In this document: positions 5,554-27,918 of the stretch, piece after piece
Numbering within the stretch: the first letter of the stretch is position 1
Layout: each line of letters opens with the position of its first letter
From: a virus
Virus record (IMG/VR): IMGVR_UViG_3300014838_000066
Span: 1-27,918 of that record
Strand: one strand, 5' to 3'
DNA: 27,918 bases
Position numbers and translations under genes: made by a program
Notes under the pieces: generated by a model
Seen by the model: only the letters and a program-made list of their open reading frames with translations
The model's database searches: none
What the model was told of the DNA's origin: nothing

Positions 5554-5559
5554 GATTAC

Positions 5560-5708: not shown

Positions 5709-5740
5709 AAAAGGTCGAAACAAACAAATTAACCAAAACT

Positions 5741-10732: not shown

Positions 10733-10946
10733 ACGTTATGGAAAATCACGATGCTCAAAAGGAAACTATTTACACAAGTTTCGAGAGGTCGAGCGGAACG
10801 AGTATGGAGTCCTTGAACGGTGCGAGCGGTGCGGGCTAAGAAAGCATTTTCCACAAGATATTTCAAGCAGTAAATACCTAGAGTTTCACATCCGAGAAGT
10901 CCTACAAACAAACGACCAAATTTATTACCATGAGTACACGCGATAA
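10722..10946 (+). CDS. Small zinc-finger-like protein between groES and groEL
   Basis: A 74-residue protein with a CERCGLRKHFP knuckle in the middle and an upstream Cys11/His18 that could complete a zinc site. It overlaps the GroES-like gene by 11 bases and groEL by 17 bases, an unusual insertion into a pair that is normally adjacent. Its function is unknown. Overlap on both sides lowers certainty, but the gene would otherwise leave a 200-base gap. Confidence 0.5.
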   Translation: MLDRRYGKSRCSKGNYLHKFREVERNEYGVLERCERCGLRKHFPQDISSSKYLEFHIREVLQTNDQIYYHEYTR

Positions 10947-13254: not shown

Positions 13255-13414
13255 AAATATAGTCCTAAAATATCAATATCAGTGCGGGAAAAGGAAGTAT
13301 GTGTCTAAAAGAGATGCGGTAACAGCGAGAAATTGGTTAAGAGATGAGCGAGGCGAGGTGCTTAATGTGTATCCATGTCCAAAGTGCAAAGGGTGGCATT
13401 TGACTCATAAGTAG
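13247..13414 (+). CDS. Small zinc-knuckle protein with CPKCKGWHLT motif (55 aa)
   Basis: A 55-codon frame, MSRNIVLKYQ to HLTHK. A Cys at 13 (YQCGKRKY) and the pair PCPKCKGWHLT (43-53) match a small phage and bacterial protein type with the pattern Y-x-C-x-x-C-x-x-WHLT, in which the first residues come from a strand with a CGK turn. Zinc binding is likely; the role is unknown. The late promoter P4 begins inside its last codons. Confidence 0.65.
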   Translation: MSRNIVLKYQYQCGKRKYVSKRDAVTARNWLRDERGEVLNVYPCPKCKGWHLTHK

Positions 13415-13428
13415 ATAAGCCCTATAAT
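13400..13428 (+). promoter_or_regulatory. Consensus sigma70 promoter P4 for the packaging/structural operon
   Basis: TTGACT (13400-13405), a 17-base spacer and perfect TATAAT (13423-13428). The -35 box lies in the last codons of the preceding gene. The predicted +1 (about 13435) is next to the A of the terS ATG (13436), so the terS transcript would be leaderless or have a 1-base leader. Confidence 0.72.
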
Positions 13429-13435
13429 ATGGGTA

Positions 13436-13987
13436 ATGGCGGCGACAATAAAGCAAAAGCAGGTTTTCAAAAAAGCACTAAAAGGCACTCCAATAAGTAA
13501 AGCGATGGTTGAGGTAGGATATTCAGAGAAATCGAATGTCGCTACGCTCACTAGAACTCAAGGATGGCAGGATTTGGTTAATAGGCATATATCCGACGAG
13601 AAGTTAGCGAAGGCACATGGAGAGCTTTTAGATCAAACGGAAGTCAATTATTTTGTGTTTCCGTCTAAGATGGAAGATGATGAGATAATTGAACACGTTA
13701 GACAAGCTGGGTTTGAAACGATTGTCGTTAGGAAGTCTATGCAAGGTAAATTAGCTTTTTATTCGATAATCAATGTGCAAGCTAGAAAATCGGCACTTGA
13801 TATGGGTTATAAGCTAAAAGATAGGTATGCCGCGGAAAAGCATATGAACATGAATGTCGAGGTCGAGGCATTACCAGTAATTAAAGCACTTACTGAACGA
13901 TTGAATGCAATATACAGCGGAGATGGTGTCCCAGGCGATGGAATTGAGTCCGGCATTGTGGGCGATAAAGCACAAGATAAAGAATGA
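13436..13987 (+). CDS. terS: Terminase small subunit
   Basis: Recognises phage DNA and delivers it to the large terminase for packaging. The N-terminal helix-turn-helix (QKQVFKKALKGTPISKAMVEVGYS, near residues 7-30) is the usual DNA-binding part of such proteins, and the C-terminal segment SALDMGYKLKDRYAAEKH is commonly seen in Terminase_2-like small subunits. The length of 183 is typical. It lies directly upstream of and overlaps the large subunit. ATG at 13436 is chosen; an ATG at 13429 is in another frame. Confidence 0.8.
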   Translation: MAATIKQKQVFKKALKGTPISKAMVEVGYSEKSNVATLTRTQGWQDLVNRHISDEKLAKAHGELLDQTEVNYFVFPSKMEDDEIIEHVRQAGFETIVVRKSMQGKLAFYSIINVQARKSALDMGYKLKDRYAAEKHMNMNVEVEALPVIKALTERLNAIYSGDGVPGDGIESGIVGDKAQDKE

Positions 13988-15539
13988 AGTAGGTTTCCCA
14001 ATAGAGTTTCAAAAGCGACGGTTTTTGTTTGATATTTATAACGACCTTAGTCCTTTCCAAGTTCTCTTGAAACCGCCGCAGATTGGGGCTACGGTAATGA
14101 ACGCCCTCAAGAGCTTCTGGGTGGCAAAGAAATTACGGCGACAGATAATTTATACCCTACCAACCATCTCGGACGTTCAAGACATGGTCGGTGGTTCATT
14201 CAATCGTATCATCGCCCAGAATCCTATCTTGATGGAGTGGGTAAAAGACCACGATACCGTAGAGCAAAAGTCAGTAGGCAATTCAATTATTTTCTATCGC
14301 GGAACATTCACGGCAAAGCAGGCTATGATGATTCCATCAGGTCTGAACATCCACGATGAGGTCGATGCGTCGAATATGGAAGTCATCACGCAATATGAAA
14401 ACAGACTACAAGCACAGGAGGACGGAGGGTGGAGGTGGTACTTCAGCCATCCCAGCCTCGCTGGACACGGAGTCGATGTCTACTGGGAACAAAGCGATAA
14501 AAAAGAGTGGTTTATCACGTGCGAGGTATGTCATACAGAACAAATACTTACCTGGCCAGATAGCATTAAGGATGAAGTTTATATTTGCAAAAACTGTGGG
14601 CGAGCGCTCTCGGATACTGCAAGAATATGTGGAGTATGGAAAGCTACATCGCAAGGTGATTTTTCTGGCTATCACATCTCCCAGCTCATGCTCTACAACA
14701 AGAGCGCGAAAGACATCATCAAAGCGTTCAACGACCCGCAAAAAGACAAACAATACTTCTACAACTATGTCTTAGGGCTTCCCTTCATCGGCTCGGAGGA
14801 TAGGATAGAACCGAAAACCGTGCTGATGAACTGCGTGGACGAGGTGAATGATTACTACAAGAAGGACGACCGAGTCATCATCGGGTGCGATACGGGGCAT
14901 GGGATACACTATGTGCTAAGAAACCAGCAAGGAGTCTTCTTGTACGGGCATGAAACGGAGATAACGGCTAGTAAAGACCCCTACGACAAGATAGCGAAGT
15001 TCTTAGAGACCTTCGAGAAATCGGTGGCTATCTTCGACCAAGGAGGAGATTTAATCGGCGTGCGTAAGCTCCAAGCCAAATATCCCGGCAGGGTCTTTTT
15101 AGTCTTCTATCGCAAGGATAGGAAGTCGAACGATTACGTTGAGTGGGGCGTTGATGATGAGTTCGGCACGGTGAGAGTCGATAGGAATAGGCAGATGACC
15201 ATTATGGTCGAGCAGATGAGAGATATTGGCAGGTATCGGCTGAACGGCACAAAGGATGAATGGGCGGAGTTCGCCTCACACTTCGGCTTCTTATATCGTG
15301 AGGAGATTATTACTGACGCAAAGCCCGGCAAAGACGATAGGAGTTTGTTGGGGGCTGAGTATGTCTGGAAGAGAAACGGCCCCGACCATTTTTGTCATGC
15401 CCTACTCTATAGCGACATCGGTATGCAACGCTTCAACCATGAGAAAGCCGTTGTCTTCGGCGCGAAGGATGTCTTTGAGGGAATACGAAAAGCCCAAATC
15501 GTGTCAGATGGGGGCGTACAACTATTGTGGCCGAAATGA
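13905..15539 (+). CDS. terL: Terminase large subunit
   Basis: The motor and nuclease of DNA packaging. The Walker A position reads KPPQIGAT (residues 56-63), where the usual GK(S/T) is replaced by GAT; Walker B is NIHDEVD (148-154). A zinc ribbon CEVC ... CKNC (206-209, 228-231) sits between the ATPase and nuclease parts, as in GpA-like terminases. The nuclease starts at IIGCDTGHG (Asp329) with later acidic residues in AIFDQGGD and a DHFCHALLYS end. The start is uncertain: ATG at 13905 gives an 83-base overlap with terS, ATGs at 13923 and 13938 give shorter overlaps and the last begins MELSPALWA, typical for this family. Confidence 0.88.
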   Translation: MQYTAEMVSQAMELSPALWAIKHKIKNEVGFPIEFQKRRFLFDIYNDLSPFQVLLKPPQIGATVMNALKSFWVAKKLRRQIIYTLPTISDVQDMVGGSFNRIIAQNPILMEWVKDHDTVEQKSVGNSIIFYRGTFTAKQAMMIPSGLNIHDEVDASNMEVITQYENRLQAQEDGGWRWYFSHPSLAGHGVDVYWEQSDKKEWFITCEVCHTEQILTWPDSIKDEVYICKNCGRALSDTARICGVWKATSQGDFSGYHISQLMLYNKSAKDIIKAFNDPQKDKQYFYNYVLGLPFIGSEDRIEPKTVLMNCVDEVNDYYKKDDRVIIGCDTGHGIHYVLRNQQGVFLYGHETEITASKDPYDKIAKFLETFEKSVAIFDQGGDLIGVRKLQAKYPGRVFLVFYRKDRKSNDYVEWGVDDEFGTVRVDRNRQMTIMVEQMRDIGRYRLNGTKDEWAEFASHFGFLYREEIITDAKPGKDDRSLLGAEYVWKRNGPDHFCHALLYSDIGMQRFNHEKAVVFGAKDVFEGIRKAQIVSDGGVQLLWPK

Positions 15540-15808
15540 ACCGAGAAGAACGCAACGCTTACAACCGCAGGAAGCAAAAAGAGTACCGTGATTTGAAACG
15601 CGGCGCACCTCCCCATCACAAGCCGACGTTCGTAAAATATACCATCACGGCGAGAGTCTTAAATATCCACGTTCCTACGGAGGAGATACTCCGGCAGGCG
15701 GGACATTGTAGTTATTGCGGGATGCTCCTAGAATCTGAGTATCATCAGAAGCATCCGTTGGTAGGTTGTCAAGTGGCGGCGAGGAATGATAACTACGGGA
15801 AGAATTAG
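15536..15808 (+). CDS. Hypothetical protein with a CxxC zinc knuckle (90 aa)
   Basis: The basic N-terminus (MNREERNAYNRRKQKEYRDLKRG) looks like a nucleic-acid-binding helix; the C-terminal part has CSYCGMLLESEYHQKHPLVGC, a CxxC plus His/Cys arrangement of a degenerate zinc finger. No HNH triad is complete. It starts within the terL stop (ATGA). The stop TAG is the first part of the TAGTACACGA element. Confidence 0.6.
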   Translation: MNREERNAYNRRKQKEYRDLKRGAPPHHKPTFVKYTITARVLNIHVPTEEILRQAGHCSYCGMLLESEYHQKHPLVGCQVAARNDNYGKN

Positions 15809-15846
15809 TACACGAAATATAACGTATTGAGTTTGTGGGATAATGT
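15806..15846 (+). promoter_or_regulatory. Late promoter candidate L1 (TAGTACACGA element)
   Basis: TAGTACACGA (15806-15815, its TAG is the stop of the preceding gene) followed by GATAAT (15839-15844, spacing 23) or TAATGT (15841-15846). The latter lies 6 bases from the portal ATG at 15853, so the mRNA would start at the start codon. No TTGACA-like -35 is present at the normal distance. Confidence 0.45.
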
Positions 15847-15852
15847 GGTCAT

Positions 15853-17853
15853 ATGTCTGACCCATTCCAAGACAATATCGACGGCGTTACCCAACTCATC
15901 ACCTCGGATACCAATAAACTTCGCACGAAGGGCAATTTAGATGTCGAAGGCAAGGTAGGCGAGGAGCTGGATGTTCTCGACCTCCCGATGTCGGACACGA
16001 AGCTCTTGAAACTCCGCGATGAGTGGGAGAACCAATATGCCCCCTATGAAAGCAAAGTAGCCATTCCTATCCGTGCGAGAAACCTCAAAAGCTATCTCGG
16101 TAGGAACGCGTTAGGCGAAGTACCGGGCGATGACGAGATTGTAGCAGCTAACCTCCAGTTCGAGTCCGAGGAGACATTCTTACCTGCGGCTACGGCACAA
16201 GACCCAGCTCCCTTCTGTTTCGCCGCAAACGACCAGCAAGGGAACAAACTGGCAGATACCGTGCAGACGATGCTCCAGTTCCACGTTCAACAGTTAAATC
16301 TAAGGCGGAAGATAGCCGTTATGGTACGCCAGTGGTCAATCAATCATCTTGGAGTCCTGAAGCCGGGCTGGAACAAAGACATCAAAGACGTTGCTATTGA
16401 AAACCGCAGGATACAAGATTTCATCTTTGACCCCGAGGGCTTTGTTGATGTGTACGGAGATTTCAGTTCGTGGCTTGGTGAGAGGATCTACGTTACGGCG
16501 GAGAAGCTGACCGAACTGTTCCCCAAAAAGACCGCCGATATAATACTCGAAGTGGACGGGAAAATGGGAACCCGTGTCTGTTGTACGGAGTGGTGGAATG
16601 ATGACTATTGTTTTACGACGTTCGAGCATCTCGTTTTAGACAAGCACAAGAACGAGTATTTTAACTATGAGGATGAGGAACAAGAGCCAGATCCGCTGAC
16701 GGGGCAGACACCTCCTCCAAAACGGAATCACTTTGCCTTACCGAAGAAGCCGTATATCTTCTTGAGTGTTTTCAGCTTACAAGAGAGACCCCACGACATT
16801 ACGGGGTTAATCGAGCAAAGTATCCCCGACCAGCGGAGACTGACCAAGAGAGCCGACCAAATAGACAACAACGTCAGTCAGGCGAACAATGGACTGATAT
16901 TCAGCGAGGATAATTTCAATCAAGAGACAGCAAAACAAGGATATGACGCTTTGACCAAGAAAGGCTATGGTGGCGTTTTGGCACCTTCGAGTGAAAAGGG
17001 ACAGGGTGCGACAGGAGCCATCGTGCGCCTTGACGCTCCTAATTTCCCAGAGGCTGCCTTCAACGAGGTGGAAATGTTGGAGAACCATATTCGTAGTCGC
17101 TGGGGTACGCAGGGCATCTCAAGCCAGCCCGCGAAACCCGACGAAACCGCTCGTGGTATGACTTTGAACCAGCAGAGAGATACTTCACGCATCGGCGGTG
17201 GCATTGGAGATGTCATCGAGCAGTCCGTAGCGAAGCCAGCGTGTGATTGGCTGGTTCAGTTGTATCACGTCTTCTACGATGAAAAACACTTTGGAGCTGT
17301 CTTAGGTTCAGGCGCGGCGACGCAGTACGTCGAACTTCAGGCTCAAGACATCGACCAGCAGTTAATCGTCGGCATCACGGCGAACTCGATGCAACCGAAA
17401 GACCAAATAAGCGAAGGGAATCAGGCGATGACCTTAGCTCAAGGTGGATTTATCGGCCCAAAGACCTTATTAGAGACGCTTAATTTCCCCGACCCTGATG
17501 ACGCAGCATCGGACGGTGCGTTCTGGACGTACAGCCAAAAGACGGATGGCGGAATGGCTTACATCAGTTTGAATTTCCCAGAACTCGGTCAGAAGCTCCA
17601 ACAGATGCAAGCCCAACAGCAGCAGGCTGCCCAACAGCAACAGCAAGCCCAAGCTCAACAGGAAGCACAAGGAGTTCAACAGCAGCAGGCTCAACAGGGT
17701 CAAGCCGCCCAGCAACAAATGGCACAAAAAGAGTCGGCGCATCAACAGAAGATGCAGCACGAGGAACAAGACCACGCCCAAAAGTTAGCCCAGTCAAAAG
17801 AAATGGCGAGTGCAGCGTTAGCGGCGAAGACAAAAGGAACGGAGGCTAAGTAG
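15853..17853 (+). CDS. Portal protein (P22-like, Gln-rich C-terminus)
   Basis: Forms the dodecameric ring through which DNA enters the capsid. The 666-residue length, the alpha/beta core with the DFIFDPEGFVDVYGDFSSW segment, the long clip/stem region with IEQSIPDQRRLTKRADQIDNN and the basic SRIGGG loop fit the P22-type portal family. Residues of about 575-640 are extremely Gln/Ala-rich, predicted as a long helix that in P22 forms the barrel reaching into the head. It follows the terminases, as usual. The start has no Shine-Dalgarno motif and is near a TAGTACACGA element. Confidence 0.85.
   Translation: MSDPFQDNIDGVTQLITSDTNKLRTKGNLDVEGKVGEELDVLDLPMSDTKLLKLRDEWENQYAPYESKVAIPIRARNLKSYLGRNALGEVPGDDEIVAANLQFESEETFLPAATAQDPAPFCFAANDQQGNKLADTVQTMLQFHVQQLNLRRKIAVMVRQWSINHLGVLKPGWNKDIKDVAIENRRIQDFIFDPEGFVDVYGDFSSWLGERIYVTAEKLTELFPKKTADIILEVDGKMGTRVCCTEWWNDDYCFTTFEHLVLDKHKNEYFNYEDEEQEPDPLTGQTPPPKRNHFALPKKPYIFLSVFSLQERPHDITGLIEQSIPDQRRLTKRADQIDNNVSQANNGLIFSEDNFNQETAKQGYDALTKKGYGGVLAPSSEKGQGATGAIVRLDAPNFPEAAFNEVEMLENHIRSRWGTQGISSQPAKPDETARGMTLNQQRDTSRIGGGIGDVIEQSVAKPACDWLVQLYHVFYDEKHFGAVLGSGAATQYVELQAQDIDQQLIVGITANSMQPKDQISEGNQAMTLAQGGFIGPKTLLETLNFPDPDDAASDGAFWTYSQKTDGGMAYISLNFPELGQKLQQMQAQQQQAAQQQQQAQAQQEAQGVQQQQAQQGQAAQQQMAQKESAHQQKMQHEEQDHAQKLAQSKEMASAALAAKTKGTEAK
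17585..17790 (+). repeat. Low-complexity CAA/CAG-rich tract in the portal gene
   Basis: Irregular CAA/CAG/GCC codon runs encode the Gln/Ala-rich C-terminal helix of the portal protein. The tract is not a perfect tandem repeat, but could vary in length between relatives. Confidence 0.7.
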
Positions 17854-17889
17854 TACACGAAATATAAACTAAACAAATTATTATAAAAT
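17851..17889 (+). promoter_or_regulatory. Late promoter candidate L2 (TAGTACACGA element)
   Basis: TAGTACACGA (17851-17860; TAG is the portal stop) followed by overlapping TATAAA (17882-17887, spacing 21) and TAAAAT (17884-17889, spacing 23). TAAAAT lies 6 bases before the ATG at 17896, predicting a leaderless mRNA. Confidence 0.45.
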
Positions 17890-17895
17890 ACTGAT

Positions 17896-18120
17896 ATGAC
17901 TAACGAAGAAGAAAATCAATACGCCGCAGGAATAATGTCGGGCGGCAACATGAGAAAAATGGGAAACAAGAAGAAATCTTCCCCCGCCCGCTCAAAGGCG
18001 TTAGAGAAGAAGAAAGATATTAACGAAAGACCCGCTGGCTATTGGGAAAATCACGAAACCGATTATCAAAGAAAGCGTCGTCAATCTAGTGAGATGAAAA
18101 AGAACGGCAAAACTTCCTAA
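17896..18120 (+). CDS. Small basic protein with SPARSKALEKKK motif
   Basis: A 74-residue, Lys/Arg-rich, probably disordered protein. The segment SSPARSKALEKKK (about residues 28-40) is nearly repeated in the protein at 18534 (STPVRTKALEKKK). The position directly after the portal and before membrane-anchored proteins suggests a structural or assembly role, but no family is recognised. Confidence 0.6.
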   Translation: MTNEEENQYAAGIMSGGNMRKMGNKKKSSPARSKALEKKKDINERPAGYWENHETDYQRKRRQSSEMKKNGKTS

Positions 18121-18121
18121 C

Positions 18122-18532
18122 ATGACAACCCTCAATAAAATTTTCGCAGGTATCGTTGGACTCGCTATTCTCCTTGGCGTGGGAATCTATGCGTATAACT
18201 CTTTCCATGTTGTCCCCCAGAATCTCGGCGGAGTTTACGGCACTCCAGCGTTCAATGACTACACGGACGCCACGCTTGCAACGACTACCTTAGCGAATTA
18301 CGCTGGCATCTTGCACGTGATTGACGTAACAACTCCTATCGCAAACTCGGTCATCACGGTTTACGACGCAGCTTCCACTTCCACGGCAACCACGGTAGTA
18401 GCAAAGATAACCGTACCCTCAACCGCAACGAACCCGTTTGAATTGACGTTCGATAATATCTTCAAGAGTGGTCTGACAGTCGTACAGACGGGAGCGAGTT
18501 CAACTATTACGGCGGAGTACCAGCAAAACTAA
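18122..18532 (+). CDS. Membrane-anchored or secreted beta-rich protein
   Basis: An N-terminal hydrophobic helix (IFAGIVGLAILLGVGIYAY, about residues 7-25) follows a short positively charged start, as in a signal anchor or uncleaved signal peptide. The rest (about 110 residues) is Thr/Ala-rich and beta-stranded (SVITVYDAASTSTATTVVAKITVPS), similar to small beta-sandwich domains. The codon use matches virion proteins of this window. It could be a virion protein embedded in or crossing a membrane; no family is recognised. It starts just after the preceding stop (leader CTAAC). Confidence 0.6.
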   Translation: MTTLNKIFAGIVGLAILLGVGIYAYNSFHVVPQNLGGVYGTPAFNDYTDATLATTTLANYAGILHVIDVTTPIANSVITVYDAASTSTATTVVAKITVPSTATNPFELTFDNIFKSGLTVVQTGASSTITAEYQQN

Positions 18533-18533
18533 C

Positions 18534-18791
18534 ATGGCAAACAAAGCGATGTGGGATTGGATGGATAAACAGGAAGGGCGCAAGGAGGGTGATTCAACTC
18601 GTGCGTTAGATAAAGAAAAAAAGCGACAAGGATATAAGTCTACGCCTGTTAGGACAAAAGCATTGGAGAAGAAAAAAGAAGGCACGCACAAACATTCGTG
18701 GGATACTGCCCCCGGTATGGACGAAAAGATATGCAAGGGGTGTAATATCCATTCTCCAAAAGATAGTCAGAGCAAACATTATATAGCGTAA
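18534..18791 (+). CDS. Small basic protein with KALEKKK motif and zinc knuckle
   Basis: Eighty-five residues, basic. It shares the motif R(S/T)KALEKKK with the 17896 gene; the C-terminal part has HKHSWD ... CKGCNIHS, a possible Cys/His metal site. Leader CTAAC. Function unknown. Confidence 0.55.
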   Translation: MANKAMWDWMDKQEGRKEGDSTRALDKEKKRQGYKSTPVRTKALEKKKEGTHKHSWDTAPGMDEKICKGCNIHSPKDSQSKHYIA

Positions 18792-18795
18792 TAAT

Positions 18796-18855
18796 ATGAC
18801 AAACGGAAAGGTCGGAAAATACACGACAAAAAAACAAATTAGACAAACAAACTAA
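18796..18855 (+). CDS. Possible 19-residue peptide
   Basis: ATG four bases after the preceding stop opens a 19-codon frame (MTNGKVGKYT to IRQTN), basic. It contains a TACACGA sequence by coincidence or as a decayed late element; the spacing to the next start (52 bases) does not match the four good elements. Reality as a gene is uncertain. Confidence 0.25.
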   Translation: MTNGKVGKYTTKKQIRQTN

Positions 18856-18871
18856 ATCATAAAACAAAATT

Positions 18872-19240
18872 ATGGCAACCATGAATGTACCGGTACATCA
18901 GTACCACCCAGAGTTCTACTCTGGAGCGAAAGTCAGACAGTCAGAATTAACATTCGAGTATAACGCAGTGACAGCGAACACGACGCTTGTGGTGAATACC
19001 ATCGGCAATGTGGGAAACTGTCACGCGCTTATAGAGAATACATCAGGTTCAAATACTATCACACTTCCGACGGCAGTAGGTTGCGTGGGGTATCAGTTCG
19101 TCATTAAAAACACAGGTACGGGAACGGTAACTCTTGCGACGACATCAGGCCAGACGATCGACGGCGCAAGTACGCAGACCATCAGCCAGTACACGGCTTT
19201 AACTCCGGTGTCGAACGGAACAAATTGGATTCTTATCTAA
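18872..19240 (+). CDS. Beta-rich virion-type protein (GQTIDG / DGTNW-like repeat fold)
   Basis: A 122-residue protein with the pattern TITLPTAVGCVGYQFVIKNTG-TGTVTLATTSGQTIDG ... NGTNWILI. This block resembles a domain found in phage fibres and head-decoration proteins, in which strands of a beta-solenoid or sandwich alternate with conserved Gly turns. A virion surface role is likely but not certain. Unlike its two neighbours it has no transmembrane helix. Leader AAAACAAAATT. Confidence 0.6.
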   Translation: MATMNVPVHQYHPEFYSGAKVRQSELTFEYNAVTANTTLVVNTIGNVGNCHALIENTSGSNTITLPTAVGCVGYQFVIKNTGTGTVTLATTSGQTIDGASTQTISQYTALTPVSNGTNWILI

Positions 19241-19241
19241 C

Positions 19242-19757
19242 ATGAATAAAACATCAATTTCAGCATTGGTAGTAGCAGTGATAGCAGTGGCAATCGCAGG
19301 ATTTGCCGTTGCTTCACCTGTTCAGCAGAAGTTAGGGTCGTATACGCCTTCTCAACAGTCGGCGGGCGGATTCATCCATTCACTCGCTACCTCAACGGTG
19401 ATAGCGACGACTGATTTGTGTTCTAACGCAAATACGCAGTGGCTTGGAACTTCGGCATTGGCAACGGGAACACTCCCTGCGGCAACCTCGACCTATGCGG
19501 CATGCGGAGGACTTGCAAATCTCGGCGCATCGGTTTCGGGGAATATCATCAACGATTCAACGAATACCGTTGCATATTCTCCGGGTACAGGAGATGTGTT
19601 CAAGTGCGAAACGATTGGAGCGGGAACTTCGACGGTGCAGGGAACATGCACGGCAAGCACTTTAACCATCCTCGCAAGCTCGACGGTGAACTATCAGGTA
19701 TTCTTCGATACTTCATCCTCGTCGTTGGTATTCTTGGTAGGTAATAACTACAAATAA
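19242..19757 (+). CDS. Signal-anchor beta-rich protein
   Basis: 171 residues. An N-terminal helix (ISALVVAVIAVAIAGFAVA, about residues 5-23) ends in ASPVQQK, compatible with a signal peptidase I site after Ala, so the protein could be exported or anchored. The remaining Thr/Ser/Ala-rich part has strands (STYAACGGLANLGASVSGNII, TVNYQVFFDTSSSSLVFLVG) and four Cys that may form disulphides. Same arrangement as the 18122 protein. Together these suggest exported or membrane-associated phage proteins; no family is recognised. Confidence 0.6.
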   Translation: MNKTSISALVVAVIAVAIAGFAVASPVQQKLGSYTPSQQSAGGFIHSLATSTVIATTDLCSNANTQWLGTSALATGTLPAATSTYAACGGLANLGASVSGNIINDSTNTVAYSPGTGDVFKCETIGAGTSTVQGTCTASTLTILASSTVNYQVFFDTSSSSLVFLVGNNYK

Positions 19758-19759
19758 CC

Positions 19760-19957
19760 ATGAGTAAAAAAGAAGCAAAATCGGAAGCATTGGAAAAGCG
19801 GCTTATCAACAACATCGGCTATTGCCCAGAGTGCAAGAAAAAGCACCCGAAAGGGAAGCATGATAAGGAAAGCAAAAGTGAAGAATATCAGGAAAGCAGG
19901 AAGGAAAGCGAAAAGAAAATGAATAAGCGGGAAGAGAACGGCGATCAAGAAGATTAA
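19760..19957 (+). CDS. Small charged protein with CPECKKKH motif (65 aa)
   Basis: The N-terminal KSEALEKRL resembles the KALEKKK motif of the genes at 17896 and 18534. Next comes GYCPECKKKH, a half zinc finger, then a long charged, probably disordered Lys/Glu tail. Function unknown. Confidence 0.55.
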   Translation: MSKKEAKSEALEKRLINNIGYCPECKKKHPKGKHDKESKSEEYQESRKESEKKMNKREENGDQED

Positions 19958-19968
19958 CTAATAAAACT

Positions 19969-20097
19969 ATGAGCAAAATCGAACTTAAAATAGACGACGT
20001 GGTGGTGTTCTCGAACGAAGTTGAGCCAGTTCCGGCTGAACCCGTGGTAGAACCTGTTGCGCCCGTAGAGGAAACACCAGTAGAACCGACAGCGTAG
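19969..20097 (+). CDS. Pro/Glu/Val-rich mini-protein (42 aa)
   Basis: A 42-codon frame starting MSKIELKIDD and containing a PVPAEPVVEPVAPVEETPVEP-type extended segment (about residues 20-40). Such Pro-Glu segments form stiff, extended chains. The leader AACTAATAAAACT matches other genes, which supports its reality. Function unknown; it lies before the scaffold gene. Confidence 0.5.
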   Translation: MSKIELKIDDVVVFSNEVEPVPAEPVVEPVAPVEETPVEPTA

Positions 20098-20193
20098 CAG
20101 TATGACGCGATAAGGGCAACGTCGTAAAAGAACTAAGTCCTGTAATATAAACTCCCTGCGAAGGGTAAAGTAACATCCTGAAAAGGAAAAAAC
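20098..20193 (+). other. Structured leader before the scaffold gene
   Basis: A 96-base gap with hairpins GACG 20104-20107 / CGTC 20120-20123 and CCCT-GCGA-AGGG (20154-20165, GNRA-type loop), then AAGGA just before the scaffold ATG, one of the few Shine-Dalgarno-like motifs here. A weak -10 (TGTAATAT, TAATAT 20143-20148) has no matching -35. It may be a processed mRNA leader or weak promoter. Confidence 0.35.
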
Positions 20194-20916
20194 ATGTCAG
20201 AATTAACAGATTTTTTGAAAGAAGCAGGAGGCGAGTCCATCTTGAATAAACCCCTTGTAACGGACGAGGCACCTGAAAAGGAAACCCCCGACGAGGAAAT
20301 CAAAAAGAATCGGTACACCCGAAGGCGGGAAGCGGAAGCTCAGAGATTACGAGATGAAAATATCCAACTCAATGAGCGGGTGAAGGTCTTGAGCGAAGTA
20401 GGGAAGTTTAGGGAAGAAGTAGGCGATGATCCGTTAAAAAAGATTGAAGCCATCTTTGGAACTGATACCCCCGAAAAACTAGCGGCGACGAATCTATTGA
20501 AGGAAGCTATCAGCGGAATGTCCGACAGGGCAAAAGCCGAAGCACTCCAAGAGATTGATTCTCGCGGCGAACAGGAATCTGAAGCCCAGAAGGAAGCTGA
20601 CGATGAAGTTGATGAGTTTCTTGAAACAGCAGAGGACGAAGGACTTGATATTGATGACGACAACACCCGCAAAGGACTGATAACGCTCATGGAGCGTATG
20701 TCCTCCAAATATAATGATGGGAACGTCAAAGAGTTCGCAGACCCCGAAGCGGTTATCGAGACTTATAAGGAGCTTCAGAAGCGTCAGGGTTCGAGCAAAG
20801 CCAAAGACTTGGCATCTCGTTCAATGACGCGCGGCGGAGAGTCCCAACCTTCCCAGCTTGAACAGAGTTCCGTGGAACGATTCATGGCAGAGCATGGACT
20901 CAATAGAAGGTGGTAA
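20194..20916 (+). CDS. Capsid scaffolding protein (probable)
   Basis: A 240-residue, strongly acidic and helical protein directly upstream of the major capsid gene. The N-terminal half has coiled-coil-forming segments (RRREAEAQRLRDENIQLNERVKVL) and the middle is acidic (ADDEVDEFLETAEDEGLDIDDDN). The C-terminus ends in a short basic helix (VERFMAEHGLNRRW), the typical capsid-binding end of scaffold proteins. No protease is visible. The assignment rests on position and composition. An AAGGA motif lies seven bases before its start. Confidence 0.7.
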   Translation: MSELTDFLKEAGGESILNKPLVTDEAPEKETPDEEIKKNRYTRRREAEAQRLRDENIQLNERVKVLSEVGKFREEVGDDPLKKIEAIFGTDTPEKLAATNLLKEAISGMSDRAKAEALQEIDSRGEQESEAQKEADDEVDEFLETAEDEGLDIDDDNTRKGLITLMERMSSKYNDGNVKEFADPEAVIETYKELQKRQGSSKAKDLASRSMTRGGESQPSQLEQSSVERFMAEHGLNRRW

Positions 20917-20939
20917 AATAAATTAACAATACAAAAAAT

Positions 20940-21983
20940 ATGGCAGGAGGTACAGCACCAAATGTCACCCTACAGACGGTAACGAATCAGTACTTAGCTC
21001 CTAAGTGGTACGATGGAGTTTTAAGGGATAACTACCTTTTTGGGCGACTCATGGAGAAGACGCAGAAGTGGAACGGTTCGCAGGAACTTATTCCGTTGAA
21101 ATACCAGAAGGGCCTCGGCTCGGTGGCGTTCAATGGTTATGACTTGCTTCCGATTTCCCAGCAGCCCGTATCAGTGAACATGACTTTTTATGCTTCGTTC
21201 ATTGCGACTAACGTCTCTTTGGCAGGCACGGATTTGTCCATCAACGACACGGATATGCAGACCATCAACTTGATGGAGCAGACAATGAAGTCTCGCGCAC
21301 AGGACGGTTCCGACGATGTCGGCAACTTCCTTCAGGGCGATGGCACTTCATTCGGCGGCAAAGCCCCGAACGGCTTGGCAAACACGGTGGACAACGGAAC
21401 GGTTGCTTCGACGTATGGCGGTCTTACCCGTGCAACGTATAATGCGTTGAACGCGTATGAGACGGCGGCGACGAACTCGGCAATCTCCCTGTTGCAGCTT
21501 CGGACGACCTGGAACAACATCTCGGACGGTGGCGTCATTCCTGATTTTATCGGGGCAGACTACGCCTCATGGTCATATGTTGAACAGCTCCAGACCCCGT
21601 TCCAGAGGAACAACATGGACTTTGCGCCGAAAGATCGCGTGGTCTCGCAGGCTTCGGGTTATTCCGAGCTTCGCTGGGACGGCATGATTATCTCGCGCGA
21701 CAAAAAGTTCCCCACGGGCTATCTCTACATGCTCAATCTTGAGTACCTGGAGTGGCACGGTTTGAAGTGGTGGAAGGGTGAGAAGGTCAGCGCAAGCGGA
21801 AAGAATATCGAAGGTAACGTGTATCAGGAGAAACTTTATACCCCAACCGTGTTCACATGGACGGGTATGGTCGAAGCGTACAACCAGGGGACTATTAACG
21901 GATTCATGATTGTTGGCGGAAATCTTATCTGCCCACTTCCGTTCCGTCAGGGTCTCATCACGAATATAACCGGCGCTGCGTAA
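20940..21983 (+). CDS. Major capsid protein (HK97 fold)
   Basis: The 347-residue main shell protein. The start (TLQTVTNQYLAPKWYDGVLRDNYLFGRLM) is the typical N-terminal arm of phage capsid proteins in this size class. The middle carries the ISLLQLRTTWNNISDGGVIPDFIGADYASW block, similar to the spine-helix and P-domain region in related capsid proteins, and the end (NGFMIVGGNLICPLPFRQGLI) looks like the A-domain strand region. No long cleaved N-terminal delta domain is present, consistent with the separate scaffold upstream. Codon use is G+C-richer than in early genes. Confidence 0.8.
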   Translation: MAGGTAPNVTLQTVTNQYLAPKWYDGVLRDNYLFGRLMEKTQKWNGSQELIPLKYQKGLGSVAFNGYDLLPISQQPVSVNMTFYASFIATNVSLAGTDLSINDTDMQTINLMEQTMKSRAQDGSDDVGNFLQGDGTSFGGKAPNGLANTVDNGTVASTYGGLTRATYNALNAYETAATNSAISLLQLRTTWNNISDGGVIPDFIGADYASWSYVEQLQTPFQRNNMDFAPKDRVVSQASGYSELRWDGMIISRDKKFPTGYLYMLNLEYLEWHGLKWWKGEKVSASGKNIEGNVYQEKLYTPTVFTWTGMVEAYNQGTINGFMIVGGNLICPLPFRQGLITNITGAA

Positions 21984-22008
21984 AATAAACTAATAAAACA
22001 CAAAAAAT

Positions 22009-22788
22009 ATGAGTCAAATTACACAGCGTGGTGCGACAGGTCCATTCGGACTTGTTTCAAATGGTGCGTTTCAGACTTCGACGGATACTGCCTTGCAGAC
22101 CCTTTTGGGTACTCGCTGGGATACTGCGGATGGTCGTGAAGTTTCACTCGGCTTGCCATCGTCAGCAACGACGGTCGCTCCGGGTTACTTCTATCAGAAC
22201 GCAGCCTTGATTGCGAACCATCAGGGTCTTACCGTAACGGCGTATACCGCTTACGGAACGACGGGTGGTGTGGCAAATTCTGCTAGCACTCCGGCGACGG
22301 TCACGGTAACTCTTGGCGGCACGGCGGCAACATTGAACCAGTATCAGGGTGGATTCTTGGTAGTCCAGTCTTCTACGGGTATCGGTCAGACGCTTCGCAT
22401 CCAGAGCCATCCGGCACAGACGGTAACGAATGGCTCTTTGGTCGTAACTTTGGAGGATGCTCCGAATCTGGCTCTTACGACCTCATCGGTTGTGAACCTT
22501 ATCCCATGCCCGGGCTCTAACGTGGTTATCAGCCCAGCAGCGGCATCGCTCACGAACACCGAGTTTGGTGTTGGCTTGTACGCGATTCCGGCATCGAGCT
22601 ACGGCTTCTTCGTTACTCGTGGCAACACGGGGATGATAGCGGTCGCGGCAGGCGTGGCGGCAGGTTCATCCCTCTCAGTTGGCGCGGCAGGCGCAGCGGT
22701 TATCCTTTCGGCAGGACTTCCTGTCTTGGGTCATAACGGCGCGGCTCTTGCGGCTTCCTCGGCGAACATCGCATACGTCAACTTGTAG
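22009..22788 (+). CDS. Probable capsid decoration/minor head protein
   Basis: A 259-residue Ala/Gly/Thr/Val-rich, beta-stranded protein directly after the capsid gene, a position often held by head-decoration or stabilising proteins. No family signature is recognised. Very few charged residues and regular short strands (TPATVTVTLGG, GSLVVTLEDAP) fit a surface protein. Leader AACTAATAAAACACAAAAAAT, which shares AACTAATAAAAC with two other starts. Confidence 0.6.
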   Translation: MSQITQRGATGPFGLVSNGAFQTSTDTALQTLLGTRWDTADGREVSLGLPSSATTVAPGYFYQNAALIANHQGLTVTAYTAYGTTGGVANSASTPATVTVTLGGTAATLNQYQGGFLVVQSSTGIGQTLRIQSHPAQTVTNGSLVVTLEDAPNLALTTSSVVNLIPCPGSNVVISPAAASLTNTEFGVGLYAIPASSYGFFVTRGNTGMIAVAAGVAAGSSLSVGAAGAAVILSAGLPVLGHNGAALAASSANIAYVNL

Positions 22789-22799
22789 TCAGTCGGTCA

Positions 22800-22839
22800 G
22801 GGGGTGGCAATCGAACCACCCCCATAGCCCCGTAAGGGG
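22800..22839 (+). other. Tandem GC-rich hairpins after the decoration gene
   Basis: Hairpin 1: GGGGGTGG 22800-22807 pairs with CCACCCCC 22816-22823 (8 pairs, 8-base loop). Hairpin 2: CCCC 22828-22831, loop GTAA, GGGG 22836-22839. No U-run follows (TAAAAACTAAC), so it is not a classical intrinsic terminator; it may be an mRNA-stabilising or partial-termination element that sets a high capsid-to-tail protein ratio (inference). Confidence 0.6.
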
Positions 22840-22861
22840 TAAAAACTAACCTGTAAAGGAA

Positions 22862-23407
22862 ATGGAAATAAAAAAAGACCCTATGGAGCGGGTCAAGATG
22901 CTCCCAGAGAACTTCGACGGTATCGTTCGGTTCACGAATTGGTCAGATGAGGACTTCGTCGGTCGGTATAACTCGAAAGACTATGAGTTCAAAGCCAACT
23001 CGACTTGTCCGTTGTTCAATGTCGATCTAACGGGTCCGACCGGAGAAGCAAAGATGGCTTCGCCTTTGGAACTCCTAAACATCGTCAAGAAGTTCGCTTT
23101 AGACCTTGCTATCAGGGAATGGGGCAAGAGCCAGTGGACGAAAGACAACCTAAAGCGTGAACGGAACGCGGATGGTACGCCGAGGTTTCAGGGGATGCAG
23201 GGCGCGGCAACGTACTCAATAGACCAGTTGGCTCCCTTGATTCAGAAAGGGCTGTATGTCTATCCTGAATCAAAGCCACACGTCTCCGAGGTACAGCGTC
23301 CCAAACTTGAAGACAAATTAAGCAAGAATGAAAAAGGCAAAAGGAGCAGCGGTGTGGTTGAAGACGGTGCTTCTATGGCTGCGCTTGCCGCATCATTCGA
23401 TAAATAA
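22862..23407 (+). CDS. Hypothetical virion-associated protein (181 aa)
   Basis: Not recognised. It contains an N-terminal beta segment with FDGIVRFTNWSDEDFVGRYNSKDYEFKAN (near 18-46), a helical middle (LELLNIVKKFALDLAIREWGK) and a basic, probably flexible C-terminus. Proteins of this type sit between capsid and tail genes in related phages, but no function is known to me. An AAAGGA motif precedes the start. Confidence 0.6.
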   Translation: MEIKKDPMERVKMLPENFDGIVRFTNWSDEDFVGRYNSKDYEFKANSTCPLFNVDLTGPTGEAKMASPLELLNIVKKFALDLAIREWGKSQWTKDNLKRERNADGTPRFQGMQGAATYSIDQLAPLIQKGLYVYPESKPHVSEVQRPKLEDKLSKNEKGKRSSGVVEDGASMAALAASFDK

Positions 23408-24130
23408 ATGTCTGTAAAACTCCTCCAAAAAAGTGAATTAGACGCACTTAAATCCAAAGCGCAGGGGCGCGAGATTTCGGAAGGAGTTAAAATTGCGACA
23501 CGGGTTGATGGGCTTCGTGAGTTATGGTCAAAGACCGAACAGGATTTTGAACACTACAAGACATCAACCCTCGCCGCGATACAGGAGGAAATAGTCAATT
23601 TGAGCAATAAAAAGGAACAGTTATCGGGAGAATTAAAGCAGATGCAGTCAAAATATGACGCTCTGATGCCCGATATTGCAACCAAACGAACCGAGTTGGC
23701 GCAATTTGAGAAATCTTTAACCTCATGGGATAAGAAACTCGAAAAACGAGAAGAAGAATCGCTCTTGGCAGAAATTGATGTCGCAGAAGCGTTAAAAAAG
23801 GCAAACGATGCCAAAGAAAGAGCGGAAAACGACGAACGTATCAGTGCAAATCTTTTGAAACAGGCGAACGAGAAGAAAGAATTGGCTGAAAAAGCCCTTA
23901 TCTCGGCGCGGAATATAGAATCAACCGCCGAAAAAGAGAAAAAAGAGATTGAGCAATCTTTATTACTACGGGAAATGTCTATCAAAGCACAGGAACAAGA
24001 ACTTTTAACTAATCAGATGAATCTTGCGTCGGACAGAAAAGTGTTGGCGATAGAAAAGATACGAGTAAATGATATGCGTCAGACGGTACAAAGGTCTCTC
24101 GATAGGTTGAAGGCGGGACGACTTGCATAA
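23408..24130 (+). CDS. Long coiled-coil protein (240 aa)
   Basis: From about residue 50 to 230 it is almost one continuous coiled coil, with heptads rich in Leu/Ala/Ile and many Glu/Lys (KKEQLSGELKQMQSKYDALM, EVAEALKKAND-type segments). The short N-terminal part may be the attachment region. The protein may be an internal virion or tail-related rod or an assembly factor. Its final stop base is the first base of the next ATG. No family is recognised. Confidence 0.65.
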   Translation: MSVKLLQKSELDALKSKAQGREISEGVKIATRVDGLRELWSKTEQDFEHYKTSTLAAIQEEIVNLSNKKEQLSGELKQMQSKYDALMPDIATKRTELAQFEKSLTSWDKKLEKREEESLLAEIDVAEALKKANDAKERAENDERISANLLKQANEKKELAEKALISARNIESTAEKEKKEIEQSLLLREMSIKAQEQELLTNQMNLASDRKVLAIEKIRVNDMRQTVQRSLDRLKAGRLA

Positions 24131-26073
24131 TGGCATATAAAATCGACCAAACTTCAGGAGATATTATTATCGGAGGATTCGACCAAGGAATTGGAGACTC
24201 TCCTTATTCTGGGCTGACTGATATGCGCAGCGTTGACCCTACGGGGCTTCCCGGCGAGGCTTCAGTTTCTTATGCGACTGCACCGATTTTCAAAAATCCA
24301 CAACTTATCAACAACACAACAGGAAGTCTTGTTACTACTTCAACGGGTGAGTTTCTTGCGCCAGAAAATCTTAAAATAGAAACTGGACAATATATTATTA
24401 TTAACAATTTGGGTGGCGCAGTAGGTTCGGGATTAGCGACTGGTGTCACTTATAGACCTCTTTATGTCACGGGAGCTGGTTCAGGAACTTTAGTGTGGCA
24501 ACTTTATACTCTGGCTAGTGTTCTTGTGACGGTTACGACTGCAAGCACTTCTGCGGTAACATTTTCAACTCTTAATCCTTCACAACCAAACTATATGGTT
24601 TTCGATGGTTTATATCATTGGATGTTGGATAACAATGGATATTTATGGAGCGACATTGTGACTACTACGGGACAAGGTTTTACTCCAGCAACCAATTCGT
24701 GGACGTGGACACAGAATAACGTAACTTCAGCTCATGGAAATGGTCTTGCGACATTAAGGACTCCGAACACAGGCGGAACGGGAGATACGTGGATATTTAT
24801 TTTTAGAGATAATACGATTGATTATGGGCCAATTACCAGTGGTTATCCTACGTGGGTCAATGGTTGGAATCCTAATACGGGAACAGCAAACAATGGGACA
24901 GTTATTCAGAATACGATTTATCATCAAGCGATGGTTGCCCCTGATGGGAATTTGTATTTTGTGAATAGTTCGGCAGGTGCAAAACTAACGGGAAGTATTG
25001 GAAAGTTACAAATCAACTTTGGCAACGCGAGTTTCACTGCTTTTGTGCCTTCGACTGGTCCTTCGGTTTCTAATTATTCTTATACTGATTACCCACTAAT
25101 TCCTAAGTTCGATTTTGCGAAATGTCTTGCGCCTTCGGGAATGAACATTCTCATAGGAGGGGAACAAAATTATATCTATAATTGGGATACATTCAGTACG
25201 GTGGTTGGAGGATATATTTATCTCGCGGAAAAAAATACCGTGGCAATGGTCACGGCAAACCAGAATACCTATGCTTTTACGGGTAATCGAGGAAATATCT
25301 ATATCACCAATGGTTCACAAGCTGATGTTTGGAAGAAGTTTCCCGATCACCTTACGGGTTCTGTTTATCCCATTTATACATTCTATGGAGCTACGTATCA
25401 GAAAGGAAGATTATACTTTGGTGTTTCTGCTACTGCACAGACAGGATATGGATATTTACCAATAGGAGGAGTTTGGTGCGTTGATTTAGCTACGGGAGCG
25501 TTTAGATGTTCTAATCAACTTTCCTATGGAACCTATAATGGTTATGCGACCTGTTTTCTTCAGGGTGATGTAACGACAAATACCCCTCCGGGTTCTGGGT
25601 TATATATAGGATGGTCTGATGGAACGGGAAATCTGTTTGGTGTTGATTCTGGAATATCAACTCCTTATACGAACGGTGCTTCTTTTATTGTTTCTGATTT
25701 GATTCCCGTGGGTACTTCGCTCAACCCTGCGACTTCCTTACAAATAGAATTCAAATTAGCGATGCCTTTGGTTTCTGGTGAAACAGTACAACTTCTCATG
25801 GCATCATCGTTATATGATTATGTCAATAATTCGTTCACTAACGTTGGTACAATAACAGGGACTAATAGCCCTTATACGACTCCTGATGGCACAAATCCTC
25901 CTATTCTATCAGGCAATCTTCCTGTTACTATCCAACGTCAACAGTGGCTTTTAGTTAAAGCGATTCTAACTAGTACCACCATAAATCCATCCTTTAATAG
26001 GATAACTGAACTTCGCGTAATTGGTGGAACAGTAAAAGATAATGTGGCGACCGCGCCTTATGGAATAAAATGA
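24130..26073 (+). CDS. Large beta-rich tail/nozzle-type structural protein
   Basis: A 647-residue protein composed of repeated short strands with conserved aromatic and Gly turns (YHWMLDNNGYLW, DGNLYFVNSS, QNTYAFTGNRGNIYITNG, GLYIGWSDGTGNLFGVD), the pattern of beta-propeller blades. The N-terminus (IIGGFDQGIGDSPYSGLTDMRSVD) resembles the beginning of tail-nozzle or DNA-stabilising proteins of short-tailed phages (P22 gp10 / T7 gp12 roles). The rest matches this idea but is not proof. It has lower G+C content than the capsid genes. Confidence 0.5.
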   Translation: MAYKIDQTSGDIIIGGFDQGIGDSPYSGLTDMRSVDPTGLPGEASVSYATAPIFKNPQLINNTTGSLVTTSTGEFLAPENLKIETGQYIIINNLGGAVGSGLATGVTYRPLYVTGAGSGTLVWQLYTLASVLVTVTTASTSAVTFSTLNPSQPNYMVFDGLYHWMLDNNGYLWSDIVTTTGQGFTPATNSWTWTQNNVTSAHGNGLATLRTPNTGGTGDTWIFIFRDNTIDYGPITSGYPTWVNGWNPNTGTANNGTVIQNTIYHQAMVAPDGNLYFVNSSAGAKLTGSIGKLQINFGNASFTAFVPSTGPSVSNYSYTDYPLIPKFDFAKCLAPSGMNILIGGEQNYIYNWDTFSTVVGGYIYLAEKNTVAMVTANQNTYAFTGNRGNIYITNGSQADVWKKFPDHLTGSVYPIYTFYGATYQKGRLYFGVSATAQTGYGYLPIGGVWCVDLATGAFRCSNQLSYGTYNGYATCFLQGDVTTNTPPGSGLYIGWSDGTGNLFGVDSGISTPYTNGASFIVSDLIPVGTSLNPATSLQIEFKLAMPLVSGETVQLLMASSLYDYVNNSFTNVGTITGTNSPYTTPDGTNPPILSGNLPVTIQRQQWLLVKAILTSTTINPSFNRITELRVIGGTVKDNVATAPYGIK

Positions 26074-26345
26074 TAACTCCTGAAATCCAACAGTTTGTAA
26101 ATAATGCGATTAAATCAGCACAGAAAAATGCTCGATATGATACTACTAACGCTAGTTTTCATACCCATAATGGGATTGATTCTCCTATTCTTCCTAATCA
26201 AATCTTATCGGGAAGTGGTGCGCCTACTATAAAAGCCGCAAAGAGTACCCTATATGTCAATACCACTGCCACTACTACTACGACAAGACTTTATATCAAT
26301 ACCGATGGCGGTTCAACGTGGGCTTATTTCACCGCAAGCGCATAG
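26070..26345 (+). CDS. Small tail-appendage-type protein
   Basis: 91 residues. The FHTHNGIDSP block (about 30-39) and the GSGAPTIKAAKSTLYVN ... TRLYINTDGGSTWAYF ending are common in small phage fibre or base proteins, where the latter forms a compact beta domain at the fibre tip or connector. It overlaps the upstream stop (ATGA). Its own stop TAG is the start of a TAGTACACGA element. Confidence 0.6.
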   Translation: MITPEIQQFVNNAIKSAQKNARYDTTNASFHTHNGIDSPILPNQILSGSGAPTIKAAKSTLYVNTTATTTTTRLYINTDGGSTWAYFTASA

Positions 26346-26380
26346 TACACGAAAAACTTTCAATCTAAACGAATTATAAT
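26343..26380 (+). promoter_or_regulatory. Late promoter candidate L3 (TAGTACACGA element)
   Basis: TAGTACACGA (26343-26352; TAG is the stop of the upstream gene), 22 bases, then perfect TATAAT (26375-26380), 6 bases, then ATG (26387). No TTGACA-like -35 is present 17 bases upstream. The predicted mRNA starts at the A of the ATG. Confidence 0.6.
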
Positions 26381-26386
26381 TCGATT

Positions 26387-27739
26387 ATGGCACTTTCCCT
26401 CACAAAAATGGTTTCGCAATTTGCGACGCTTTCGCAAAATAACACAACGGCGAACAAGACGCTTGCTGGTCAGTTGTTGAACCAAGAGCATCGTTATCTT
26501 CTCCTTCGCTATTTCGACAACGAGCGTTCCTTCACCATGACGACAGTAGGCCCGCAGGTACTCACGATAACCGCAACACCCGTCGTGGGAGTAACAGGAA
26601 ACCAGACTGCGACGCTTGAAGCGACGTGGCCGTATCCGTCGTGCCAGCAACTCGTCGTTTTTGGAGACTCCGAGCAAAGGACAGTCTTCTTTACGCAAAA
26701 TTCGACGAACATCTATTGGCAATCCTCGCTTCAGGGACAGCAGTTTTTAACAACCAATGTCATCGCCGTCGGAGCGACTTCAGCTACTTTAGTCAGCCCG
26801 TGGACGACGGCTTCTCAAAGTTCTACCGCTTCATTTTCCGACGGGTCTACGAAGACAATTACGTTCACGCAGAACTCCGCTACCATCAGCTGGATAGGAG
26901 GACTAGTAGAACAGGTACAGGCTTTTGTCTACGTTATTCCGACGAATACTTCCATTTCTTGCGTCGGGGTGCAGTCGTATCGTATGCCAGCGAATATCTC
27001 GAAGTTAAAAACTTCCTCAATAACGATAGGACAGTTGGTTTACATCGCCTATCCGATTAACTCGATTCAGGAGTGGGTCAAACTGAACGCTCTGCCTTAC
27101 ACGGCATCCTATCCTGCGTACTTCTTCCTTTATAACGACGAGCTGAAGTTCTGGCCTATCCCGTCTGCAACAGGAGAGATTATCTCGCTTTACGCCCAGA
27201 TAAATACACCCGACCTAACCTATGAAGATTATGTTTCTACCTCTGTAGCTCCTAACGGTACGGTAAGTGCTTCGGTTGGGTCAAACATCATCACGGGAAG
27301 CGGAACAACCTTCAGTAGCGTAGGAACATTCCCGTTAAATACCGACCTTACGTTTAATAATATCTTCATCTCTCTTACTCCTCCCGGCGGTGATGGATTG
27401 AACTATCAAGTGCAAAGCGTCCAAAGCGATACCTCATTGACACTTTTCAAGCCCATTGTCTATGCTCCTGCGACTTCGAGCGTTTACTTCTCAATGGGTC
27501 AATATCCCCTCCTAGACCCCAATTTCCACGACGCTATCGTCTACGGAGCTTTGCGGACGTATTTCTCAAGCATCGCAAAAGACACGGACAAGGCGGGATA
27601 TTTCGGTGGTCTGTATCAGGAGCGTCTACAAAGGATGGAGTTTTATCTTTCAAGCAAGCAGGTCAATGTGGATCTTGGCTCGTCTCCCCGTCAGAGCAAT
27701 CCGAACCTTTACCTACAAAGCAATTCATCAAGCTTATAG
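26387..27739 (+). CDS. Head-to-tail adaptor-like protein with duplicated beta domain
   Basis: 450 residues. The N-terminal helices (TKMVSQFATLSQN, GQLLNQEHRYLLLRYFDNE) and the C-terminal part (YQYPLLDPNFHDAIVYGALRTYFSSI and GLYQERLQRMEFY are the clear helical blocks) resemble connector/adaptor proteins of short-tailed phages (P22 gp4 / T7 gp11 roles). About 100 residues in the middle are inserted as two similar beta units (about 75-115 and 135-175; FFTQNSTNIYW versus FTQNSATISWI). The part PAYFFLYNDELKFWPIP is also typical for adaptor proteins. Role inferred from these blocks and position. Confidence 0.6.
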   Translation: MALSLTKMVSQFATLSQNNTTANKTLAGQLLNQEHRYLLLRYFDNERSFTMTTVGPQVLTITATPVVGVTGNQTATLEATWPYPSCQQLVVFGDSEQRTVFFTQNSTNIYWQSSLQGQQFLTTNVIAVGATSATLVSPWTTASQSSTASFSDGSTKTITFTQNSATISWIGGLVEQVQAFVYVIPTNTSISCVGVQSYRMPANISKLKTSSITIGQLVYIAYPINSIQEWVKLNALPYTASYPAYFFLYNDELKFWPIPSATGEIISLYAQINTPDLTYEDYVSTSVAPNGTVSASVGSNIITGSGTTFSSVGTFPLNTDLTFNNIFISLTPPGGDGLNYQVQSVQSDTSLTLFKPIVYAPATSSVYFSMGQYPLLDPNFHDAIVYGALRTYFSSIAKDTDKAGYFGGLYQERLQRMEFYLSSKQVNVDLGSSPRQSNPNLYLQSNSSSL

Positions 27740-27774
27740 TACACGATTTATCTAACCCTAAAAAGAATTATAAT
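27737..27774 (+). promoter_or_regulatory. Late promoter candidate L4 (TAGTACACGA element)
   Basis: TAGTACACGA (27737-27746; TAG is the adaptor gene stop), 22 bases, TATAAT (27769-27774), 6 bases, ATG (27781). Geometry is identical to L3, with the intervening sequence mostly different except for GAATTATAATT. Confidence 0.6.
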
Positions 27775-27780
27775 TAACCT

Positions 27781-27918
27781 ATGGCACAATCTTCAGGAAA
27801 TCTCGTAAATAGCGCAAGCCAATCACTTCAAGGCACTCAAACCCCTATTGACTCTCCGCTTTTGAATGGAATAAATGCGGCGGGTGGTTGGGGCAAAGCG
27901 TTAGGTGGCCTAATGCAA
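27781..27918 (+). CDS. Partial CDS, Ser/Gly-rich virion protein start
   Basis: An ATG with 46 codons to the window edge (MAQSSGNLVN ... GKALGGLMQ), no stop. The composition (Ser, Gly, Asn, Gln) resembles the beginning of a virion or injected protein in a short-tailed phage, but the fragment is too short to assign. Its own TAGTACACGA/TATAAT element lies directly before it. Confidence 0.5.
   Translation, partial: MAQSSGNLVNSASQSLQGTQTPIDSPLLNGINAAGGWGKALGGLMQ

Follow-up and report, generated by a model that had tools for sequence, protein, structure and literature searches.

Putative leaderless late promoters with a phage-specific upstream box in a phage of likely Patescibacteria hosts

Four genes in the virion region of the virus record analysed here, a 27.9-kb stretch taken in its entirety (hereafter the window), are preceded by exact copies of the 10-mer TAGTACACGA, each of which places the heptamer TACACGA upstream of a TATAAT-like hexamer and a start codon. 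Judged from the sequence, the geometry of the four sites is that of leaderless promoters without a -35 box. In related phages the box likewise recurs at a fixed distance from the -10, which is the mark of an activator-dependent late promoter. Quite probably, the sites are late promoters read by a host polymerase of the sigma-70 type with the help of an activator specific to the phage, which would sit at about -46 to -35.

The phage and its likely host

Besides GroEL and terminase, the window encodes a portal, a major head and a tail fibre-like protein, among others (Table 1). A megablast search of the window against phages returned no match, and relatives of about 41–43 kb were found. The two ends of one of these, G009, join in one open frame; G009 is therefore probably complete and the window probably about 15 kb short. 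Relatives of the terminase large subunit (TerL) occur in genome bins of Parcubacteria (40%) and Nealsonbacteria (45%) and in one Woesearchaeota bin (35%), and the host likely belongs to the ultra-small Patescibacteria. A conserved block at 10481–12528 comprises a GroES-like gene, a small zinc-motif protein and GroEL, with GroEL present in all 12 genomes compared and the GroES-like gene in 11.

Table 1. Coordinates of the box promoters and of associated genes in the window.
Feature	Position	Strand	Remark
Small zinc-motif protein, flanked by groES-like and groEL	10722..10946	+	alternative activator candidate
Canonical promoter TTGACT-N17-TATAAT	13400..13428	+	7 nt before ATG 13436 (terS position)
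Terminase large subunit	13905..15539	+	phrog_675, E 1e-79; no late box before it
Candidate late activator, a small basic protein of 90 aa with a zinc motif	15536..15808	+	stop abuts box 1
Box 1, TAG + TACACGA	15806..15815	+	stop of 15536-15808 gene; before portal; same place in relatives
-10-like GATAAT, promoter 1	15839..15844	+	ATG 15853 after 8 nt
Portal protein gene	15853..17853	+	phrog_156 portal, E 7e-7
Box 2, TAG + TACACGA	17851..17860	+	stop of portal gene
-10-like TAAAAT, promoter 2	17884..17889	+	ATG 17896
Box 3, TAG + TACACGA	26343..26352	+	stop of 26070-26345 gene; before tail-type gene
-10 TATAAT, promoter 3	26375..26380	+	ATG 26387
Tail fibre-like gene	26387..27739	+	phrog_1980, weak, E 1.6e-4
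Box 4, TAG + TACACGA	27737..27746	+	stop of 26387-27739 gene
-10 TATAAT, promoter 4	27769..27774	+	ATG 27781; gene cut at window end

Four box promoters in the window

All four copies of TAGTACACGA lie on the plus strand; dinucleotide shuffles lead one to expect 0.01, and not a single shuffle contained four. It is the sole 10-mer with at least four copies in the window once A-rich words and a coding tandem repeat are set aside; the latter (GGCAAACCTT) occupies 6360–6460 of the 6183–6563 gene and is among the 10-mers with four copies. The first-pass annotation had described the four copies, and its account holds for their positions as well as for their restriction to the front of virion-region genes, the early half of the window containing none. 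Each copy consists of the in-frame TAG stop of the preceding open reading frame followed by TACACGA, which begins 44, 42, 41 and 41 bases before the next ATG, as claimed. The annotated -10-like box some 22 bases further on was recovered with gaps of 23, 23, 22 and 22; the hexamers match TATAAT at 5–6 of six positions, are perfect at the third and fourth sites, and end 8, 6, 6 and 6 bases 5' of the ATG. A TTGACA-like -35 at the normal spacing of 16–18 bp reaches at best 2–3 of six matches at the four sites, in agreement with the proposed absence of a normal -35.

The heptamer alone has two further plus-strand copies (8483 and 18820) and none on the minus strand. The former lies within a coding gene; the latter was considered as a promoter and not counted, standing 52 bases before an ATG and lacking a convincing -10. 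The exact 10-mer is confined to the four sites; with two mismatches allowed it is at chance level in the window. The claim therefore rests on the exact copies and on the relatives.

The leaderless appearance of the four promoters had escaped the first-pass annotation. It recalls leaderless TA-led genes, for which TATAAT about 12 bp before the ATG is the published signature (PMC3160421); unlike at the sites described here, no upstream box common to late genes is described in the part of that source drawn upon. Promoters of the canonical type share the same leaderless spacing, namely that at the terS position of the window (Table 1), the terS promoters of G009 and G005 (TTGACG-17-TATAAT-6-ATG) and the groES promoters of G009 and G001 (TTGACA-18). 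Thus, host-type promoters are seen in front of the packaging genes, box promoters in front of those for the virion. Furthermore, sites of the form TATAAT-N5-8-ATG number 120 against 34 in the control in one Nealsonbacteria genome and 40 against 31 in a Parcubacteria genome, counts which make leaderless starts plausible in hosts of this kind.

Conservation and variation of the box in relatives

The motif search in relatives proposed by the first-pass annotation revealed a clade in which the box occupies the same place before the portal gene, the post-portal gene, the tail gene and a later tail-region gene, at -41 to -49 from the ATG of orthologous promoters. The post-portal gene is thus preceded in G009, G005, G006, L022 and L018, and the tail-gene ortholog in G009, G002 and G003. 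In nearly all of the relatives' listed sites the -10 hexamer ends 6–8 nt before the ATG. The proposal of late promoters of the TATAAT type, with the box at about -41 to -35, is supported. The variant TACACGA is found in the window, L005, L008, L022, L010, L015, G010, G005 and L085, TACACAC in G009 and G001, TACACGC in G002 and L013, and TCCACGC in G006 and L018, while AATACACGC is the main variant in G003. Across phages, the gap between box and -10 extends from 22 to 28, a range of 6 bp.

The comparison is based on 35 sites curated by us, among which the -10 of G006:299 was set and G003:17396 was added by hand; core positions are conserved by construction, as the site search used T[AC]CAC, and the shuffle test within genomes is independent of that core. 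Of 29 pairs of sites sharing a genome, 93% have the same 8-base box (15% after shuffling), and the gap differs by 0.5 bp on average (2.2 after shuffling), neither value being reached in any of 20,000 shuffles. Between phages, by contrast, the box of portal promoters matches in only four of 28 pairs. Box and gap are therefore nearly uniform within a genome and not across orthologous promoters, which is the trace of a co-evolving trans-acting reader. When 8-mers were sought automatically in all upstream regions under relaxed criteria, the box barely stood out from A-rich noise, and the strict pattern, applied to all of IMG/VR, yielded six contigs not otherwise found as relatives, about the number that we estimate for chance.

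The stop codon, originally regarded as part of the element, is not conserved. Within the window the word always includes it, as an RNA-level or translation element beside the stop (readthrough or a start-associated sequence) would have it, but among relatives the box may come after any of TAG, TAA and TGA, fall within the preceding gene or stand beyond it, and a stop is often lacking, of another kind or 3' of the box. The TAG overlap is therefore attributed to compact packing, and a readthrough or stop-codon element was rejected. The box lies 41–49 bases from the ATG, a leaderless start would leave it untranscribed from its own promoter, and an RNA-level role is highly improbable.

Stoperators are asymmetric sites that occur in one orientation at gene junctions. 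The box shares all three properties and might accordingly be thought of as a repressor operator silencing late genes, as in mycobacteriophage L5. Within each phage, however, its distance to the -10 and the ATG is fixed and a -35 is absent, which fits activation, and neither a repressor nor an integrase appeared among the early proteins scanned, which were part of the set; silencing by such sites is considered very unlikely. The likeness extends to the SAS/ESAS elements of mycobacteriophages, which together with stoperators constitute short oriented junction repeats with phage-specific variants (PMC3203893). In contrast to the box, those repeats serve in repression or, as proposed, in translation, and show no constant spacing to a -10.

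Two promoter architectures are apparent among the relatives. A -35 is missing from phages with a gap of 22–25, whose -10 is mostly strong (weaker in G006), whereas in phages with a gap of 26–28 the box often lies a few bases 5' of a -35-like hexamer that is itself 16–17 bp from the -10. Such hexamers are ATGACA in G002, TAGACA in G005 and TTAACA at one of two sites in L085, and G003 has no clear -35; within this second set, G002, G003, L013 and L018 have a weak -10, L085 and one of the G005 sites a strong one. The pattern suggests that a box-bound protein and a -35 contact may partly substitute for each other.

The portal boxes of the T[AC]CAC type number 17, and a TerL tree with 72 rows places 15 of them in a single fork of 19 members, whose support is mixed (83/99). 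The remaining two, TCCACA words carried by one close pair, are probably due to chance. One member of the fork, L084, carries neither the box nor the protein encoded at 15536–15808. In a neighbouring group, TACAC gives way to GTGAAA or GTGAAC, exactly at -48 from the ATG (before the portal in L027, L028, L101 and L136, before two genes in L032), as if a different reader had taken over.

The reader of the box

The first-pass annotation had left open whether an activator or an alternative sigma factor reads the box; the former is likely, and a phage sigma is disfavoured. An alternative sigma of phage or host origin, with TACACGA as its -35 element, would account for the missing normal -35 and for the rough coincidence of the box with that position. 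Yet the -10 is still TATAAT-like, and a gap of 22–28 across phages, varying by 6 bp, is wide for one sigma. The suggested search for a phage-encoded sigma-like gene gave no region 4 over the cut-off in 14 records, while control genomes did give matches; a divergent sigma could still escape this cut-off. The promoter form was likewise at control level in 286 Patescibacteria genomes (three hits against three in the control), and reading by an alternative sigma is, on these grounds, unlikely. Two weak helix-turn-helix (HTH) matches, at 7178–7711 of the window and in G009 (the latter read by eye), were examined and set aside as HNH-type nucleases with an HTH.

A host DNA-binding protein, rather than one of the phage, could also read the box, its variants mirroring different hosts. 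The phage gene for an activator is a candidate only, and the variants could follow host differences; against this stand the control-level occurrence of the promoter form in Patescibacteria genomes and the fact that the box tracks a phage gene, so that we give a host reader little credence.

For a phage-specific activator, the gene was predicted to lie outside the window. The best candidate is instead inside it, directly before the first promoter: the protein encoded at 15536–15808 has a basic N-terminal stretch and a CxxC...H...C arrangement. Its family sits before the portal in 22 of 76 loci, comprising all 15 with a convincing portal box, two (L033 and L014) with boxes elsewhere and five neighbours, and is thus present in 17 of 17 box phages with a mapped portal. 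Two of the five neighbours (L016 and L093) show, by eye, the similar word GACACC at the place of the box. The other 54 loci yielded no protein of this type; a convincing box is missing from all of them, and two have the chance-like TCCACA. Marginal members of the family in L021 and L085 carry the box, and the member in L017/G005 lacks the zinc part. After removal of the TerL component, partial Mantel tests linked the protein to the box (r 0.30, p 0.03) and to the gap (r 0.23, p 0.016), weak values obtained after other proteins had been tested, an earlier screen of 13 proteins in eight genomes being exploratory. Co-occurrence of protein and box is confounded by shared descent and adjacency; because of these and the several tests, the case for the candidate as late activator is suggestive.

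The 15536–15808 protein matched no known family, and a Pfam scan of the members of its family gave no Ogr/Delta match. The zinc proteins at 10722 and 12525 were rejected as activators, being present in all 12 genomes, including those without the box; neither gave a useful fold match or a Mantel signal. It may tentatively be proposed, though we hold it to be rather doubtful, that the 15536 family constitutes new phage late activators and that box and gap were re-set together several times among the relatives, between -35-assisted (gap 26–28) and -35-less (gap 22–25) leaderless promoters.

In the proposed mechanism, the terS-terL region would be read from its canonical promoter, and terminase and the zinc-motif protein would be made first. 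The candidate protein would then fire the four promoters, of the portal, tail and other virion-region genes. There, a phage-specific DNA-binding activator would bind TACACGA, which at about -44 to -35 stands in for the -35 contact, and recruit host RNA polymerase carrying its main sigma-70-type factor, the latter presumably reading the TATAAT-like -10. The spacing suggests that transcription starts at or beside the A of the ATG and yields leaderless mRNAs.

Relation to known phage activators

The Ogr/Delta proteins of P2 and P4 are small zinc-binding phage proteins that activate several late promoters from dyad sites near -55 (Ogr). A small zinc-motif phage protein, here a candidate, and several late promoters are common to both systems, whereas the present box is asymmetric and nearer the promoter and the candidate has no match among known families. 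Class II activators such as lambda cII and Mu C bind in or beside a weak or absent -35 region. The box likewise lies at the -35 region where no good -35 exists, but it is an asymmetric site of 7–8 bases, and no homologous protein was recognised in the families scanned. At T4 middle promoters, the MotA phage box replaces the -35 and the sigma-70 -10 is kept, a phage activator acting with host polymerase. The MotA box lies nearer -30, unlike the present box at about -46 to -35, which moreover precedes late genes with putatively leaderless starts. The replacement of the -35 by a phage box with retention of a sigma-70 -10 is shared with the MotA/AsiA system (outlined in PMC6070864).

An activator-dependent phage late promoter is of a known kind, while the box, its position, the leaderless form and the candidate protein look new. 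A literature search yielded no prior description, and in the literature searched there was no paper on gene regulation in Patescibacteria phages. The late promoter defined here comes in natural variants of box and spacing, so that the specificity of the activator and the trade-off between activator box and -35 can be read from sequence. In uncultured phages, the box may also serve as a key when searching for late genes and for the activator.

Other elements in the window and its relatives

A non-coding stretch at 1190–1432 has a very stable predicted fold (z -5.2) with paired ends, no Rfam match and nothing similar in the fetched relatives. A second structured non-coding stretch, at 5556–5740 (z -3.8), lies directly behind a TTGACA-16-TATACT promoter and has no Rfam match either. 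G009 encodes an RNA ligase-like protein (Pfam RLIG1; L071 3750–4319, minus strand). The leader of the scaffold-like gene at 20194 contains, at 20150–20193, two small hairpins with GNRA-like loops (CCCTGCGAAGGG and TCCTGAAAAGGA), which are kept in nine phages and in which five of eight predicted pairs exhibit pair-preserving changes on both sides.
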